Below, in pieces: positions 1,244-64,000 of a stretch of 64,000 bases of DNA (position 1 is the stretch's first letter; each line of letters opens with the position of its first letter). A model generated the notes under the pieces. The model had not been told where the DNA came from. It saw only the letters and a list, made by a program, of their open reading frames with translations, and did no database searches. The position numbers and the translations under genes were made by a program. The stretch covers positions 124,001 to 188,000 of the forward strand of contig NZ_RZJR01000006.1 in NCBI RefSeq assembly GCF_003990975.1, written 5' to 3'. This stretch comes from Cohnella sp. AR92 (GTDB lineage Bacteria; Bacillota; Bacilli; Paenibacillales; Paenibacillaceae).

Positions 1244-1759
1244 TTGATGATAATAAGAACGGAGAATGAACGGGAATACCAGGAAGTCTATGACTTGAAT
1301 TATCAAGCCTTCGGTAATAGAGAAGACGAATCGAAGTTAGTGGAGCGGATAAGAACGTCCGAAGGATTCGTTCCCGAGTTGTCGCTTGTGGCGGAAATGG
1401 ATGATCGAATCGTTGGTCATTTATTATTAAGCGAAGCCACAGTAGAAGATCAAGAGGAATCGCATACCGTAATCGTATTAGCCCCAATAGCCGTGAAGCC
1501 GGACATGCAAGCACGGGGAATTGGAAGCAGCTTGATTCAAGAGGGGATTAAGAGGTGCAAGGATCTAGGATACGAATTAGTCTTGTTAATCGGACATCCT
1601 AGTTATTATCCGCGTTTGGGATTCCAGCCGGCGAGACCGTTTGGACTTGAATTGCTACAGTTCGAGGTGTCCGATGACATATTTATGGTCTACGAAGTTA
1701 AGGAAGGGGCGCTTCTAAAAATGAAAGGCGAGTTGAAATATCCGGAAGCCTTTTTCTAA
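1244..1759 (+). CDS. GNAT N-acetyltransferase, YhbS-like
   Basis: A 171-residue single-domain acetyltransferase. Motif A is visible as VKPDMQARGIGSSLIQ, followed by a HPSYYPRLGFQPA block typical of YhbS-type predicted acetyltransferases. It starts at ATG (a second ATG follows directly) after a weak GGGG ribosome site. It lies just behind another GNAT gene and probably shares its transcript. Substrate unknown. Confidence 0.88.
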   Translation: MMIIRTENEREYQEVYDLNYQAFGNREDESKLVERIRTSEGFVPELSLVAEMDDRIVGHLLLSEATVEDQEESHTVIVLAPIAVKPDMQARGIGSSLIQEGIKRCKDLGYELVLLIGHPSYYPRLGFQPARPFGLELLQFEVSDDIFMVYEVKEGALLKMKGELKYPEAFF

Positions 1760-1818
1760 GCTAGGAACTGATCGACGATAAACTGCTGTGGAGAGGGACC
1801 TGCTAGAATGGAGGCGCC

Positions 1819-1956
1819 ATGAGGAAGAAGCGAATTCGATTAGAGCCTGCACACGATATCCGAGAGTATGCTCATGGATTCAGCATCGTTTCAGCATCAA
1901 CGGGCTTTGACAGCCTCATCTATCTACTCCTTCGCCAGTCACTCCCATATGGATAA
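1819..1956 (+). CDS. possible 45-residue small protein
   Basis: A short open frame starting MRKKRIRLEP and ending QSLPYG, with GGAGG five bases before its ATG. A strong terminator begins 2 bases after its stop, which is how a last cistron of the GNAT operon would look. The N-terminus is basic and the C-terminal half is hydrophobic (SLIYLLLRQS). I recognise no family. It could be a chance frame inside a 3' untranslated region. Confidence 0.35.
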   Translation: MRKKRIRLEPAHDIREYAHGFSIVSASTGFDSLIYLLLRQSLPYG

Positions 1957-1958
1957 AT

Positions 1959-1981
1959 CCGCGCTCCGCGCGGTTTTTTTA
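1959..1981 (+). terminator. rho-independent terminator
   Basis: CCGCGC-TCC-GCGCGG hairpin followed by a run of T residues. It ends the acetyltransferase transcript. Confidence 0.85.
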
Positions 1982-2001
1982 TTTTCGCCCAGCACATGAC
2001 C

Positions 2002-2059
2002 TTGACAGGAGGGAGGGTATCGCCTACTATGGGATCTATTCAATAAATCTATTGAATAG
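2002..2059 (+). promoter_or_regulatory. promoter and perfect palindromic operator of the ArsR-rhodanese gene
   Basis: TTGACA at 2002-2007 and TACTAT at 2025-2030 are 17 bases apart, a near-consensus housekeeping promoter. Starting 5 bases after the -10 lies a perfect inverted repeat with arms CTATTCAATA (2036-2045) and TATTGAATAG (2050-2059) and a 4-base spacer. It covers the expected transcription start. This fits an ArsR-family operator for autorepression of the downstream gene. Confidence 0.85.
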
Positions 2060-2073
2060 TTGAGGTGGGCGCA

Positions 2074-2739
2074 ATGGAGTTTGAACGTCAATGGAAAGAT
2101 CAACTCTACCGGGAGTTTGCGCGTATAGGCAAATGTTTATCCAGTCCGAAGCGGCTGGAGCTGATCGACTTGCTGTCCCAAGGACCTAAATCCGTGGAGC
2201 AGCTGGTCAAGCTAACGGGAATGAGCGTAGCCAACGTCTCCCAGCATCTTCAGACCCTACATGAATCGAAGATGGTGCGCTTCCATAAGAAGGGCAATTA
2301 CGTCATCTACGAGATTGCCGAGCGCTCGATCGCCGACTTCATGGTATCCATGCATAAGCTAAGCGAGAAGCAATTGATCGAGATCCAACAGCTCAAGAAA
2401 GAAGTATTGGAGCATCGGGCTCGAATGGAGCCTATTGCTCTTGACGAACTTCTAGAACGCATGGAGAAGGGGGAAGTCGTGCTGGTGGACGTAAGGCCGG
2501 AGGATGAATACGCGAGCGGGCATATCCCCGGCGCCCTGTCGATGCCGATCGATGAACTGGAGAAGCACTTGTCGTCCTTGCCGATGGATAAGCATATCGT
2601 GGCTTATTGCCGAGGTCCTTACTGCCTTCTGTCGGCACAGGCCATCGAAATTCTGGAGAGAAACGGGATAAAGGCCTCCATGCTGGAAGAAGGCGTGCAT
2701 GAATGGAAGCATCATCTGGAGCACTCCAATCGAAGATAG
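2074..2739 (+). CDS. ArsR-family regulator fused to a rhodanese domain
   Basis: A 221-residue protein. Residues about 10-90 form an ArsR winged helix (LIDLLSQGPKSVEQLVKLTG, then SVANVSQHLQTLHESKMV). Residues about 120-215 form a rhodanese domain (VLVDVRPEDEYASGHIPGA) with active loop YCRGPYCLLS containing two cysteines. ArsR proteins repress until an inducer binds; the rhodanese cysteine would carry a persulfide, so reactive-sulfur or electrophile sensing is a reasonable inference. The ATG at 2074 is preferred over the GTG at 2065 because AGGTGG then lies 6-7 bases upstream. The next gene, an MFS pump, follows closely and is the likely target. Confidence 0.9.
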   Translation: MEFERQWKDQLYREFARIGKCLSSPKRLELIDLLSQGPKSVEQLVKLTGMSVANVSQHLQTLHESKMVRFHKKGNYVIYEIAERSIADFMVSMHKLSEKQLIEIQQLKKEVLEHRARMEPIALDELLERMEKGEVVLVDVRPEDEYASGHIPGALSMPIDELEKHLSSLPMDKHIVAYCRGPYCLLSAQAIEILERNGIKASMLEEGVHEWKHHLEHSNRR

Positions 2740-2785
2740 GTAAATGCGGTTCGAATTGATTATAGAAGAAAGGCGGTTCTACGCG

Positions 2786-4087
2786 ATGAAGCATGAACCC
2801 GATCCTATCCAGAAGTACGTGAATTCGCCAAGCTTGCAGCAACAATTGTTCAAGAGGTCCCTCTGGATCGTCGTCATCTCGCAAATATTCGGCGGAGCCG
2901 GTCTGGCCGCCGGGGTAACCGTCGGCGCACTGCTTGCCCAGGACATGCTGGGAACGGAAAGCTATGCGGGGATACCAACAGCTTTATTTACCCTCGGTTC
3001 TGCGCTGGCTGCGTTCCTGGTAGGACGTTATTCGCAGCGCTTAGGCCGCCGTTGGGGACTTTCCGCCGGCTTTATGGCTGGTGGAATTGGAGCCATAGGA
3101 GTCATTTTCGCGGCTATTCAAGACAGCGTTGTTCTCTTGTTTATCTCGCTCTTTATCTACGGGGCAGGAACGTCGACGAACCTGCAAGCCCGATATGCCG
3201 GGACCGACCTGGCGAAGCCGAATCAACGCGCCAAAGCGATCAGCATCGCGATGGTCACGACGACGCTGGGGGCGGTTGCGGGTCCGAACTTGGTGGAAGT
3301 CATGGGCAAATTCGCGATTTCCATCGGAGTTCCGGCTTTGGCGGGGCCCTTTATTCTTGCTGCCGCAGCCTATATACTGGCAGGTTTCGTTTTTCTCCTC
3401 TTTCTCCGTCCGGATCCGTTCGTCGTCGCTCAAGCCATCTATCGGGCGCAATCGGCGACGAATGGCTCAGTCCAAGCGCCATCGAGCGCTTCTAAGGTCA
3501 ATAACCGGAATCTGATCGTCGGGACGACCGTCATGATCCTCACGCAAGTCGTGATGGTCGGCATCATGACCATGACGCCCGTTCACATGAAGCATCACGG
3601 ACATAGCATAAGCGATGTCGGAATCGTCATCGGCATTCATATCGGATTCATGTTTTTACCATCTCTCCTAACAGGAGTACTTGTCGATAAAATAGGTCGT
3701 GCGACCATGTCGATTGCATCGGGCGGCGTGCTTCTTCTTGCCGGACTGGTTGCGGCTTTGGCGCCGGCCGACTCCATGTTCGTCCTGATTATCGCGTTGG
3801 CTCTGTTGGGGCTTGGCTGGAACTTGGGCTTGATCAGCGGAACGGCTCTCATCGTGGATGCGACGGATCCGGCAACGCGCGCCAAGACGCAAGGAACCAT
3901 CGACGTGTTGATCGCGCTTGCGGGAGCTTCGGGAGGAGCGGTATCCGGCATGGTTGCCGCACATTCCAGTTATTCGGCCTTGTCGCTCTCCGGCGGCGGA
4001 CTTGCTCTTCTATTGATCCCCGTGGTGATATGGTCCCGAAGAAAACAGCAGCATCAACCTTCTTCCGACCAAATCTCTCTTAACTAA
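2786..4087 (+). CDS. MFS transporter
   Basis: About 433 residues with 12 predicted membrane segments and the MFS loop motif VGRYSQRLGRRWGLS between helices 2 and 3. An upstream in-frame ATG at 2744 also exists but has a cramped ribosome site; the ATG at 2786 (MKHEPDPIQ) follows GAAAGGCGG. It is cotranscribed with the ArsR-rhodanese regulator and closed by a terminator at 4117. I infer export of a compound sensed by that regulator. The substrate is not visible in the sequence. Confidence 0.85.
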   Translation: MKHEPDPIQKYVNSPSLQQQLFKRSLWIVVISQIFGGAGLAAGVTVGALLAQDMLGTESYAGIPTALFTLGSALAAFLVGRYSQRLGRRWGLSAGFMAGGIGAIGVIFAAIQDSVVLLFISLFIYGAGTSTNLQARYAGTDLAKPNQRAKAISIAMVTTTLGAVAGPNLVEVMGKFAISIGVPALAGPFILAAAAYILAGFVFLLFLRPDPFVVAQAIYRAQSATNGSVQAPSSASKVNNRNLIVGTTVMILTQVVMVGIMTMTPVHMKHHGHSISDVGIVIGIHIGFMFLPSLLTGVLVDKIGRATMSIASGGVLLLAGLVAALAPADSMFVLIIALALLGLGWNLGLISGTALIVDATDPATRAKTQGTIDVLIALAGASGGAVSGMVAAHSSYSALSLSGGGLALLLIPVVIWSRRKQQHQPSSDQISLN

Positions 4088-4116
4088 CGTTCGATCATCC
4101 ATACGGCCATTTCCGA

Positions 4117-4141
4117 TCCGCGCGTTGCGCGGATTTTTTTT
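4117..4141 (+). terminator. rho-independent terminator
   Basis: ATCCGCGC-GTT-GCGCGGAT hairpin followed by eight T residues, downstream of the MFS gene. Confidence 0.9.
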
Positions 4142-59881: not shown

Positions 59882-60505
59882 TTAAGCCAATCTCTCAATA
59901 AGAAGCGACGCGCTTGTGACCGGCGTTCCGCCGCCGATGCTCGCTTGCAATGTAACCGCACCCATGTTGTCGATCCGGTTTAGCGTCAGCGTTCCTCCGG
60001 CGGTCAATCGAGCAACGACTTGGCCCGGATAAGTTTGGTTGCCCGAACTCGAACCGTAGTTGCTGCAAGGAACAAGAGATGGAGCGATCGGACCGGCCCC
60101 GTCCGGGTCGAAGAACAAGCCGAAGGCGGTGTTGCCGGCATTCGGGAACACTTCCCAAGTAATGCGATAGAATCCGGTCGTCAGGATGTTAACGGTGGAG
60201 GGCGAGGTAAAGGATACGTTCGTCGAGTCAATCACGGCGTCGTTGAACGTAACGGCCCCGCCTTGGCCGCCGGGAGCGGGAGCGGGGGCAACGGACTGGT
60301 CGACCGAGCTGCACAGGAAAGCGAACGACGCTTGAGCAGCGGGACCGGCAGGGCCTTGAGGACCTTGTGGGCCTTGGGGGCCTTGGGGACCTTGCGGCCC
60401 TTGCGGGCCCGCTGGGCCTTGCGGGCCGGTTAATCCTTGCGGGCCTTGTGGCCCTTGAGGGCCTTGCGGCCCGGGAGGTCCGGGAGGACCTGGTAATCTA
60501 CCCAT
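59882..60505 (-). CDS. collagen-like spore-surface protein with C-terminal globular domain
   Basis: 207 residues. About residues 5-57 are Gly-X-Y triplets, mostly GPQ, interrupted once by LTG and a few PAG. The remaining 150 residues form a globular domain ([20 protein letters not shown]-like region) of the TNF/C1q-like sort that trimerises collagen stalks, as in BclA exosporium proteins. No signal peptide is seen, which fits assembly on the spore surface by the mother cell. DNA in the repeat is built of near-identical 9-base units. Confidence 0.88.
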
Positions 60506-60715: not shown

Positions 60716-61756
60716 ATGACTGTCAATAATGGGTTCGTAGGAATTCTGGTCGCGAATCGAGCGCAAAGAAAGTACGTGCTTAACCAATATTTATCGCACA
60801 ACACGGCAGGAGTGCAGCTGATCGCTTTCACTCCATCCTCTATCGATTGGAACCGTCGGAAGATTATCGGAATGCGTCGAATCCGAGGAAGGTGGTCGAT
60901 CGGCCGATTTCCTTTTCCCAAAGTCGTGTATAATCGCTGTTACGGCTCGAATACGCCGCTTATCGAAAGGCTTGGTGCCGAGATCGGTGGGGAGCATTTC
61001 TTTAATCACATTAATCAACTGAACAAGCTGGCCATATATAATAAGCTGAATAGGTGGCTTGAACCTAATCTGCCGGAGACCGTTCCTTATGAAGAAGCGG
61101 ATCTGATGAGCATGCTGGAACGTCATAAGGAAATTTATATAAAACCTTATTTCGGATGCATGGGCAAGGGCGTTTACCGTGCAGAGATCGATTCCTTAGG
61201 CGATATCCGCGTGGGTCAGCACTATTTCGCCCCGAAGACGGCGACGAGCGACAGCGTTTTTTTCCAAGACCATATCCGGAAGCTGGTAGGTTCAACTCCT
61301 TACCTCGTGCAGAAGGGAATCCCGATCCATCAGCTCGACGGGCAGGTCTTCGATATTCGTTCCCTTGTGCAGAAGAATGATCGGGGATTGTGGTCCGTCA
61401 CGAATCTCGTGAGCCGGATCGCCTACAAAGGCAGCTATAATACGAGCATCTTCGTTAAATCCTGCTTGTCGCAGGAAGTCCTTAAGAAGCTGTATCCGCC
61501 GGACAAGGTTCAGGCCATTGTCACTTCCATTTACGATATCAGCCTCCGGACGGCGGAGATCATCGACATGGAGACGGATTATCATCTGGGCGAATTCAGC
61601 GTTGACGTCGCATTGGACAGCGATGCGCATCCTTGGATCATCGAATTGAACGGCAAGCCGCAGAAGGATCTATACCGAGGCGTCCCCAATCGGTCCGTCG
61701 TCTATCAGCGCCCGCTCCAATATGCGAAGTACTTGTGCGGGAAACGCTCCTTGTGA
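60716..61756 (+). CDS. YheC/YheD-family ATP-grasp protein
   Basis: 346 residues from ATG 60716 after CGGAGG; the frame upstream is unsupported. Family-typical blocks are FVGILVANRAQRKYVL, FNHINQLNKLAIYNKL, IYIKPYFGCMGKGVYRAE, QLDGQVFDIRSLVQKN and the ATP-grasp metal segment LGEFSVDVALDSDAHPWIIELNGKPQK. YheC and YheD are endospore coat-associated proteins in Bacillus. Divergent from the collagen-like gene, 210 bases apart, so the pair may be sporulation-controlled. Enzymatic product unknown. Confidence 0.88.
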   Translation: MTVNNGFVGILVANRAQRKYVLNQYLSHNTAGVQLIAFTPSSIDWNRRKIIGMRRIRGRWSIGRFPFPKVVYNRCYGSNTPLIERLGAEIGGEHFFNHINQLNKLAIYNKLNRWLEPNLPETVPYEEADLMSMLERHKEIYIKPYFGCMGKGVYRAEIDSLGDIRVGQHYFAPKTATSDSVFFQDHIRKLVGSTPYLVQKGIPIHQLDGQVFDIRSLVQKNDRGLWSVTNLVSRIAYKGSYNTSIFVKSCLSQEVLKKLYPPDKVQAIVTSIYDISLRTAEIIDMETDYHLGEFSVDVALDSDAHPWIIELNGKPQKDLYRGVPNRSVVYQRPLQYAKYLCGKRSL

Positions 61757-62095: not shown

Positions 62096-62302
62096 ATGAA
62101 AGTCGTCATGCTGGAGAAGAACCGGGACGGAAGCCTTGTCCCTATCGATGAGAGGGAGTGGACGCACGAGATGCTGGAATCCCTCCATCACGTCAACTAT
62201 TGCGTACTTGGCAGCCAGGAATACCAAACGCTCGAAGGCCGATTGAACCTGGACTTGGAGCGGATGGAGCTGCTGGTCGTCAAGATGCTTCATGAAGATT
62301 AA
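62096..62302 (+). CDS. unknown 68-residue protein, first gene of the ATP-grasp operon
   Basis: Begins MKVVMLEKNRDGSLVPIDER, GGAG 11 bases upstream. Small, acidic, helical in the second half (RLNLDLERMELLVVKMLHED). No family recognised. It lies 37 bases before the serine/glycine-tail protein and is likely in the same operon. Confidence 0.6.
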   Translation: MKVVMLEKNRDGSLVPIDEREWTHEMLESLHHVNYCVLGSQEYQTLEGRLNLDLERMELLVVKMLHED

Positions 62303-62339
62303 TGGTCTCGGATAACAAGAGTTGAATAGGAGAGAAGGA

Positions 62340-63107
62340 ATGGACATGCAACCGGAACAATTCAAACCGAATGCGAAATCCGATCGGATGCCGAATTCGA
62401 ACCCGGATCGGAATACGGATGAACTCATCCTCCACAAATTATTCACCAAAGACGGAGTGCCGCTGCGAATCCTTTCGACTTCTCTCGGGATCGCCTTGCT
62501 GGCGAACTTAGCGTTCCTGCCCGCCGGCGCGCGTGCCGAGACGGCGTCGCCTACGCCAACCGCCTCCGCGGGTGCCGACGCGGAAGCCGGTCCCAAGCTG
62601 GTGGAATGGTCCAGCGAAGCCGTCAAGAAGTATTACGACGCTGCCGTCGATTGGAACTTGCCGCTTCCGGCAGACAAGGAACTCGACCAGCAGCCCGTAC
62701 CGACCGATGAACCGGCGCAAGGAGCCGCGGGCGGAGGCGGGTCCGGGGGGACGACGGTCGTCCATACGTACTCGTCCGGCTTCGGGTGGGACGATCTGCT
62801 CCTCTACCATCTGCTATTCAACGGCGGAGGCTCGTATTCGTCGAATTCGTGGTCGAGCGGCCACCGTTCTTATACATACGGCAGCAACACGCCTTACAAG
62901 CCGAAGTCTTATTCGTCCGGAGCGTTCCAGAACAAGACGGTGACCGGATCGACGGTGTCTCCTAAGACGTCCAACTCTTCGGGCTCCATCGTTCGCCGCT
63001 CGACTTCATCGACTCCCGGAGGGATCGGAGGCAAGTCCAGCAGCGTCAGTTCCGGGTCGTCCAGCTCTTCTTCCGGCTCGAAGTCGTCGGGAGGCTTCGG
63101 CGGATGA
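62340..63107 (+). CDS. membrane-anchored protein with serine/glycine-rich C-terminal tail
   Basis: 255 residues from ATG 62340 after GGAGAGAAGG. A polar N-terminus of about 45 residues, one hydrophobic segment (RILSTSLGIALLANLAFLPAG), then an outside region containing GGGGSGGTTVVHTYSSGFGWDD, and a low-complexity Ser/Gly tail that ends SSGGFGG. The layout recalls YgiB/YjfM (DUF1190-like) proteins that sit next to glutathionylspermidine-synthase homologues in enterobacteria. Its stop overlaps the next start (ATGA), so it is directly coupled to the ligase gene and may be its substrate. Confidence 0.7.
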   Translation: MDMQPEQFKPNAKSDRMPNSNPDRNTDELILHKLFTKDGVPLRILSTSLGIALLANLAFLPAGARAETASPTPTASAGADAEAGPKLVEWSSEAVKKYYDAAVDWNLPLPADKELDQQPVPTDEPAQGAAGGGGSGGTTVVHTYSSGFGWDDLLLYHLLFNGGGSYSSNSWSSGHRSYTYGSNTPYKPKSYSSGAFQNKTVTGSTVSPKTSNSSGSIVRRSTSSTPGGIGGKSSSVSSGSSSSSSGSKSSGGFGG

Positions 63108-64000
63108 CGGAAACGTTCCGAGTGATCGGACGGCCGGACGACAATCGAGCTCGCAAGGTGGAACAGCTGAGAGAACTAGGCTTCGCTTGGGCTGACCTTG
63201 AGGACGAAGCTTATTGGCTGGACCAGGTCGTCGGCATGAACCGTTCCGTCTACGAGAAGCTAGAGCAAGCTTCCGAACGTCTATGGCGACTATTGGATCG
63301 CACGGTCCGCTACCTTATCGGCAGAAGAGACCTGTACGAGCTGCTCGGCGTTCCCAAGGTTCTGTGGGAGATGCTCGATCTGTTGCCCGTTCCGCCTGAA
63401 GGCTTGATCAGCCGGTATGCCCGGTTTGACTTCGCGATCTCGTCGGACGGCGAGATCAAGATGCTCGAGCTGAACGCGGACACGCCGACGGGTTACGTGG
63501 AAGCTTCCATTGCGACCCCTTGGCTATGCCGTCAGGCCGGAATCGATAACGTCAACGAGACGATGAAGGAACGGCTGGCGGAGGCTTGGGCCATCGAGAA
63601 GCCAGACACCATCGCTTGCGTCGGATACGGCTCTCATCTCGAGGATTCCGGCACGATCGAGGCTCTGGCGAAACATAGCGGCTTGAATCCGAGGCTCGTC
63701 GATTGCCTGGAGCTGTGGGTGGACGAAGGAATCTTGAAGGACAGCCGTGCGGAGCCGATTCGCCGCCTATTCGCCCTTTATCCGAAGGAATGGATGGCTT
63801 ACGACGACGGAGGCGACGCGTTGGCCTATGCGATCGAGATGGGCAACCTCCAGCTGTTCAATTCCGTGCACAGCATCCTGCTTCAATCCAAAGGGCTGAC
63901 GGCCGCGGTGTGGGGCTTGCATGAATTGGGCGCGTTCTACGACGAGGAAGAGAACGACGCCATTCGGCGCTACTTGCTCCCGACCTACAACAAGCCCGTA
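63104..64000 (+). CDS. glutathionylspermidine synthase-like ATP-grasp ligase (3' end outside window)
   Basis: At least 299 residues with no stop before the edge. The segment RFDFAISSDGEIKMLELNADTPTGYVEASIATPWLC matches the YjfC/YgiC group (preATP-grasp region), and the acidic-residue block continues toward the ATP-binding site outside the window. Such enzymes join an amine to a carboxylate with ATP. No glutathione pathway is expected here, so the acceptor is more likely a peptide or protein, for example the Ser/Gly tail protein encoded just upstream. ATG overlaps that gene's stop. Confidence 0.85.
   Translation, partial: MTETFRVIGRPDDNRARKVEQLRELGFAWADLEDEAYWLDQVVGMNRSVYEKLEQASERLWRLLDRTVRYLIGRRDLYELLGVPKVLWEMLDLLPVPPEGLISRYARFDFAISSDGEIKMLELNADTPTGYVEASIATPWLCRQAGIDNVNETMKERLAEAWAIEKPDTIACVGYGSHLEDSGTIEALAKHSGLNPRLVDCLELWVDEGILKDSRAEPIRRLFALYPKEWMAYDDGGDALAYAIEMGNLQLFNSVHSILLQSKGLTAAVWGLHELGAFYDEEENDAIRRYLLPTYNKPV

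Follow-up and report, generated by a model that had tools for sequence, protein, structure and literature searches.

A five-gene unit in Cohnella and other Paenibacillaceae with a GSP_synth-family ATP-grasp ligase and an adjoining protein ending in Gly-Gly as its candidate substrate

Gss is an enzyme that amidates the C-terminal glycine of glutathione. Two Escherichia coli proteins, YgiC and YjfC, were reportedly found by Pederick et al. in 2023 to be peptide–spermidine ligases, and the RefSeq name of both is peptide--spermidine ligase. According to the available part of a further report, YgiC lacks the glutathionylspermidine activity of Gss (PMC12506659). The accessible text of an mSystems paper from 2024 describes operons in which DUF350, DUF1190 and PspA accompany a GspS-like ATP-grasp ligase, and it proposes a link of polyamines to membrane state (PMC11237479). 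Furthermore, spermidine occurs in eukaryotes attached to the terminal carboxylate of SUMO, which ends in LGG, and it can be attached to ubiquitin in vitro, as stated in the available part of another work (PMC12270671). No natural protein substrate for YgiC or YjfC was found in the open literature searched.

In this study, a ligase gene and its neighbors were analyzed in a 64,000-nucleotide stretch of contig NZ_RZJR01000006.1 of Cohnella sp. AR92 (the window). A sequence-only reading had described three close genes from position 62096, the last two overlapping in ATGA, and this was confirmed by the open reading frames: the stop of the gene for a Ser/Gly-tailed protein (the tail protein) and the start of the ligase gene share the ATGA at 63104-63107. 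The window ends inside the ligase gene, the rest of which was read from the contig. Past the ligase, the contig carries a lipoprotein-like gene and a DUF350 gene, the latter predicted beyond 64000 by the same reading; thus, the real unit comprises five genes rather than three, in an order established directly from the contig (Table 1). A 15-pair hairpin lies directly 3' of the DUF350 gene in a terminator scan that found 5 where 3.3 were expected, and a promoter scan found 1 site (1.6 expected). Among the five genes, no Pfam match to PspA, DUF2170 or DUF2491 was obtained.

Table 1. Coordinates of the five-gene unit and of the parts of the tail protein, in the window and beyond its end
Feature	Position	Strand	Remark
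68-aa small protein	62096..62302	+	Operon gene 1; ORF call
Tail protein, 255 aa, ends KSSGGFGG	62340..63107	+	ATG at 62340, stop to 63107
Tail-protein parts			Export signal or anchor (hydrophobic), conserved central part, Ser/Gly-rich end
Hydrophobic stretch of the tail protein, residues 44-62	62469..62525	+	Signal peptide or membrane segment
Internal GGIGG motif of the tail, residues 227-231	63018..63032	+	Alignment of tails
C-terminal Phe-Gly-Gly of the tail protein	63096..63104	+	Predicted amide-formation site
GSP_synth (PF03738) ATP-grasp ligase	63104..64000 in the window; gene end at window-equivalent 64297	+	397 aa whole
Lipoprotein-like protein, 213 aa	Window-equivalent 64302-64943 (L002:5303-5944)	+	Outside the window, 3' of the ligase
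DUF350 membrane protein	Window-equivalent 64940-65332	+	PF03994, 1.6e-30; outside the window

Several other genes lie near the unit. A YheC/D-type ATP-grasp protein (PF14398, 171 bits) is encoded 5' of the operon at 60716-61756; its gene is more than 300 bases away and was left out. The minus strand at 59882-60505 encodes a collagen-like protein of Gly-Pro-Gln repeats whose C-terminal part is not repetitive. On the far side, L002:8754-10423 (window-equivalent 67753-69422) holds a 368-aa protein without a Pfam match and then, about 3.5 kb beyond the operon, a PspA-like protein (TIGR02977, 28 bits, below the cut-off). These two genes, 2.4-4 kb downstream, were rejected as members of the system, as no match to them was found in the other 80 Paenibacillaceae loci, most of which were read for about 6.5 kb on each side.

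The ligase belongs to PF03738 (GSP_synth; 188.4 bits against a cut-off of 29.3), and its only Pfam domain covers residues 20-394 of 397, making it a stand-alone synthetase without the amidase domain. The likeness to YjfC and YgiC that had been noticed earlier was borne out by the nearest solved structures by sequence, which are E. coli YjfC (4.4e-23) and YgiC (7.5e-15). When 26 positions of E. coli Gss were compared with the ligase, 13 were identical and 13 different. Residues R107, D109, E122, N124 and E180 of the ligase correspond to Gss R316, D318, E330, N332 and E391, and K263, K307, R312 and R379 correspond to K498, K533, R538 and R598; these nine residues, directly seen to be kept, are what we take to be the catalytic residues of Gss, and some of the 13 differing positions are presumably substrate-binding. 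The best reading of these similarities is a peptide–amine ligase of the YgiC/YjfC kind, as a predicted activity.

Searches of 148 genomes of the family with a PF03738 profile gave matches in 112. The profiles of the small protein and the lipoprotein matched an identical set of 69 of the 148, with one copy of the small protein each except for two in one genome (G138), and the tail profile matched the same 69 and G114, where the tail is a fragment holding a stop and there is no ligase. A PF03738 match is present in all 69 genomes with the module. That these three genes are inherited together, in 69 of 148 genomes, is directly observed and marks the unit as more than a chance assembly; it agrees with the earlier expectations that the genes would be kept together in relatives and that the 68-residue protein may be a further component, which it constantly is. 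For closer comparison, 80 Paenibacillaceae regions were picked by hand from the PF03738 matches, giving 81 loci with that of the window. The module in the form seen here (type I) occurs in 59 of the 81, which cover type I loci from 59 of the 69 genomes. The ligases of the other 22 loci are more distant (22-36% identity to that of the window); no match to the window's tail was found in these 22, and most have a small lipoprotein-like partner in its place. A DUF350 match lies near the ligase in 80 of the 81 loci, the exception being L111. In the G138 locus (L082), the operon seemingly occurs twice in tandem, with two matches each for the ligase, small protein, lipoprotein and tail.

The tail protein has no Pfam match up to E = 1. 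Homology to DUF1190, the family of YgiB and YjfM, was considered and rejected because a PF06693 match is absent; the protein is not a detectable homologue. The single membrane segment proposed earlier stands as one hydrophobic stretch (best 19-residue Kyte–Doolittle mean of 1.79, starting at residue 44) with a conserved STSLG-type core in the alignment, which may instead be a signal peptide. No lipobox-like pattern was found in 58 type I tails. The low-complexity SSGGFGG end previously noted is present, and the conservation of its last three residues is a direct observation. In 59 type I tails from Paenibacillaceae, position -1 is Gly and position -3 is Phe without exception, and position -2 is Gly in 57 and Ser in two; Phe accounts for 1.4% of the 40 residues preceding these three. 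From -4 to -30, the commonest residue reaches only 36-85%, and the Ser/Gly stretch drifts. The second fixed element is GGIGG-x-SS, which lies approximately 25 residues before the end and in which G230, G231, S233 and S234 are invariant in 33 of 33 aligned tails. A GGFG- or GGIG-like element also precedes the C-terminus in many partners from other groups, and the GGIGG motif is a possible docking site for the ligase.

To compare partners across loci, a blind rule was used that scored only residues -33 to -4 for their content of Ser and Gly and ignored the last three. Open reading frames were called mechanically, and the picks in the GC-rich loci L111, L190, L191 and L210 may be spurious. Since the sequences are related, no p-values are given; expected numbers were derived from each tail's own composition. 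In Paenibacillaceae, the pick ended in Gly-Gly in 78 of 81 loci (3.8 expected), i.e. in 57 of the 59 type I loci and 21 of the 22 others. A second set of named loci, the best 80 of at least 586, contains 20 type I loci, six of which share their tail with a locus already among the 81. Within this best 80 of at least 586, 42 of 62 picks ended in Gly-Gly (3.2 expected), as did 24 of 42 picks from the 60 loci left after removing type I (2.3 expected) and 13 of 26 picks from the 42 loci outside Bacillota (1.5 expected); among the 62 picks, the other ends were GS (8), SS (6) and one each of SG, CG, RS, PR, VI and GL, so that 59 picks finished in Gly or Ser. The E. coli partners YjfM and YgiB end in HWGG and SMGG, respectively. 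The arrangement is thus not peculiar to Gram-positive bacteria: the partner ends in Gly-Gly in E. coli and in half of the picks outside Bacillota as well.

By a cruder rule, the longest open reading frame directly upstream of the ligase ended in Gly-Gly in 68 of 81 Paenibacillaceae loci and in 34 of the 80 named loci (the best of at least 586), and the gene directly downstream did so in none of 81 and in 6 of 71 from the same best 80. Other open reading frames with Ser/Gly-rich tails in the same loci, but without the inner motif, ended in Gly-Gly in 1 of 87 cases (2.9 expected), and among the longest frames of at least 100 aa in the named loci (again the best 80 of at least 586) the count was 40 of 795, partners included. 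In addition, a phylum sample of 299 genomes gave PF03738 matches in 31, over the cut-off in 24, and 28 loci, 12 of which yielded a pick. All 12 picks end in Gly or Ser; five end in Gly-Gly, three of these five being from Paenibacillaceae. The 12 came from the 14 loci with strong ligase matches (L114-L127), and the weak ones (L128-L141; E of 8e-11 or worse) gave none. The weak matches are proteins of about 330-450 aa with no Ser/Gly-rich-tailed neighbor; as none of these 14 loci gave a pick, they are probably another kind of protein, perhaps of a different ATP-grasp family.

The blind rule found no partner in 18 of the 80 named loci (the best of at least 586), in 13 of which a plausible partner was seen by eye or by a Gly-Gly scan; none was found by the blind rule, by eye or by the scan in L198, L207 and L213. 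The partners of L194 and L211 are doubtful, and the picks for L190, L191 and L210 are also unconvincing. In L105, genes of 223, 134, 170 and 247 aa lie in a row at oriented positions 1648-4132 on the opposite strand, about 2 kb 5' of the ligase. This row is PspA-like and DUF350-like by eye, and its 247-aa product has a lipoprotein-like start and ends in RVGFGRISRRR.

The partners are diverse in the remainder of their sequences. With the last 45 residues cut, blastp at E <= 0.01 matched the window's tail to 79 type I partners and to no other pick. Pfam recognizes DUF1190 in the partner of L187 (129.5 bits) and weakly in that of L183, and five others (L163, L201, L181, L195 and L212) have no Pfam match. 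A lipobox-like pattern occurs in 58 of the 64 non-type I partners (85 picks minus 21 of type I, L143-L162 and L090). That partners without detectable similarity to this tail share its kind of end is the most interesting result of this comparison, and it points to the C-terminal residue of the tail as the acceptor of the ligase. The earlier interpretation is partly supported as a whole, and its idea that the ligase modifies the tail protein is strengthened, with the candidate site narrowed to the C-terminal Gly. Not all partners conform: GS or SS ends follow an RGGFG motif in L181, L183, L193, L202, L208 and L217, and partners with such ends include Sphingobacterium, Akkermansia, Faecalibacter and planctomycete loci. 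As Ser ends are common and Gly-Gly is not universal, what the partners share is that they finish in a small residue, most frequently within Gly-Gly, and the likeness to the Gly of glutathione is exact for only part of the partners. These Ser ends outside type I are also one reason to consider that the substrate of the ligase is a small peptide or thiol, as glutathione is for the well-studied relative Gss, with FGG being kept for another purpose, such as partner binding or protection from proteases. However, the same kind of end on partners with no detectable similarity to the tail, and the absence of glutathionylspermidine activity from YgiC in the available part of the report cited above (PMC12506659), weigh against this explanation, which we consider unlikely.

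Two other explanations of the conserved end were weighed. The terminal Gly codons could be kept for the sake of the DNA, as the ribosome-binding site of the ligase gene or for the ATGA overlap, in keeping with a last codon that is mostly GGA and with a pick directly 5' of the ligase in 75 of the 81 Paenibacillaceae loci. A ribosome-binding site, however, should make the Gly codons GGAGG-like and require them only upstream of the ligase. Of 59 tails, 39 finish with the codons GGCGGA and only 8 with GGAGGA, the Phe before them is invariant, the Gly-Gly gene follows the ligase in seven named loci (L187, L195, L197, L214, L216, L218 and L219), and another gene intervenes in L171, L175, L176, L178 and L179. 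Codon usage and, unless they are exceptions with a separate origin, the loci with the Gly-Gly gene elsewhere rule out such an artefact, and a DNA-level cause is extremely improbable. It is also highly unlikely, if slightly less so, that the tail protein is a RiPP-like precursor that is cleaved near its end to release a small modified peptide. A conserved front followed by a variable end of low complexity, together with an ATP-grasp enzyme, would suit such a precursor, but no recognizable protease or peptide exporter was found in the operon, and the lipobox-like patterns of the non-type I partners fit a lasting envelope protein.

The 68-aa small protein has no Pfam or NCBIfam match. AlphaFold2 predicts a compact beta-beta-alpha-beta-beta-beta fold (mean pLDDT 92.4), for which Foldseek found no PDB match at E <= 0.001, the best being 6j2l, a 'bi-functional enzyme' (0.045). 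In L171, L175, L176, L178, L163 and others, a protein of about 150 aa with an ..EIDEDRxxYVxYV motif takes its place upstream of the ligase; the two examples tested have no Pfam match. An hhalign probability of 21 is only suggestive of the small protein being related to this protein, perhaps as a single repeat of it. The fold search with the lipoprotein gave no PDB match at E <= 0.001 and only weak OB-fold-like matches. The sequence KFRGWA at the C-terminus of the lipoprotein is unchanged in all 23 aligned homologues, as if this end were also a binding or modification site.

For the unit as a whole, we infer a reaction together with its amine, its timing relative to export and its role at the envelope. 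The ligase probably attaches spermidine, or an amine like it, to the terminal Gly of the tail protein before export, producing a cap at the envelope. In the cytoplasm, the ligase would use ATP to activate the C-terminal Gly carboxylate (...GGFGG-COOH), to which a primary amine, most likely that of spermidine, would be joined; the enzyme may hold the tail by the GGIGG element, which lies approximately 25 residues upstream. The tail protein would then be exported and, once at the cell envelope, would bear a polyamine cap with a positive charge, and the small protein, lipoprotein and DUF350 protein would serve the same five-gene unit. One point against this reading is that the tail protein is of an exported type, whereas the ligase appears to be cytoplasmic. 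As no hydrophobic segment was found in the ligase, it is expected to act in the cytoplasm, before export, and this order is also suggested by the export-type segment of the tail and by the lipobox-like pattern of most other partners.

The amine itself cannot be read from the sequence, and no polyamine gene was found among the five genes of the operon. The ligase could therefore amidate the C-terminal Gly with another amine, such as an amino acid, another polyamine or a lipid or protein amine (a lipoprotein lysine, for example). In E. coli, however, the relatives are reportedly spermidine ligases, the genome has matches to spermidine synthase and AdoMet decarboxylase, and the need for ATP would restrict the amine to those of the cytoplasm. 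Fungal ATP-grasp ligases, one of them structurally similar to YgiC/YjfC, are involved in reactions with many amine donors according to the accessible part of a recent report (PMC12568646). On balance, an amine of another kind is improbable, although it is the least improbable of the alternatives weighed, and spermidine remains our preferred donor.

The loci of other groups allow a broader proposal, for and against which the chances are almost balanced, with a slight lean against: that several phyla share a dedicated C-terminal polyamine tag, in which the adjoining ATP-grasp ligase family caps convergent envelope-protein tails with spermidine before export. Unrelated envelope families would have converged on a Ser/Gly-rich tail ending in Gly-Gly or otherwise in Gly or Ser. 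If true, this tag would be a one-enzyme bacterial parallel to ubiquitin/SUMO–spermidine conjugation and would explain YgiB, YjfM and many unnamed partners; polyamine-capped envelope proteins would be widespread and would probably influence envelope charge and stress. An activity is already reported for YgiC/YjfC, and the C-terminal Gly-Gly of the neighboring protein offers a substrate candidate; because this end recurs in distant groups, a definite protein and a definite residue can be proposed.

The ligase family and the operon type are already known, and the Paenibacillaceae partners add a new variant; the Gly-Gly C-terminal rule was not found in the open literature searched, in so far as its texts were available, and may already stand in subscription papers. 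Compared with E. coli Gss, the ligase keeps the nine presumed catalytic residues of an enzyme that likewise amidates a C-terminal Gly, but it lacks the amidase half, and its predicted substrate is a protein. The YgiBC and YjfIJKLMC systems of E. coli share with this locus a ligase of the same Pfam family and an adjacent partner whose Ser/Gly-rich end finishes in Gly-Gly, and the yjf operon also has a DUF350 gene. In contrast, the partner here has neither a DUF1190 match nor a lipobox-like pattern, the operon contributes a small protein and a lipoprotein of its own, and a PspA partner of the YjfIJKLMC type is absent from it, the only PspA-like gene lying well past its end. The Psp-linked operons likewise combine an ATP-grasp ligase, DUF350 and an envelope lipoprotein; the Gly-Gly rule, the substrate assignment and the Paenibacillaceae version were not found in the accessible text of that paper (PMC11237479). 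The conjugation of spermidine to SUMO and ubiquitin, as described in the available part of the report (PMC12270671), resembles the reaction predicted here in placing spermidine on a C-terminal Gly-Gly carboxylate at the expense of ATP. It differs in its use of E1 and E2 enzymes and in being reversible by an isopeptidase, whereas in the present system a single ATP-grasp ligase would act on a low-complexity tail.
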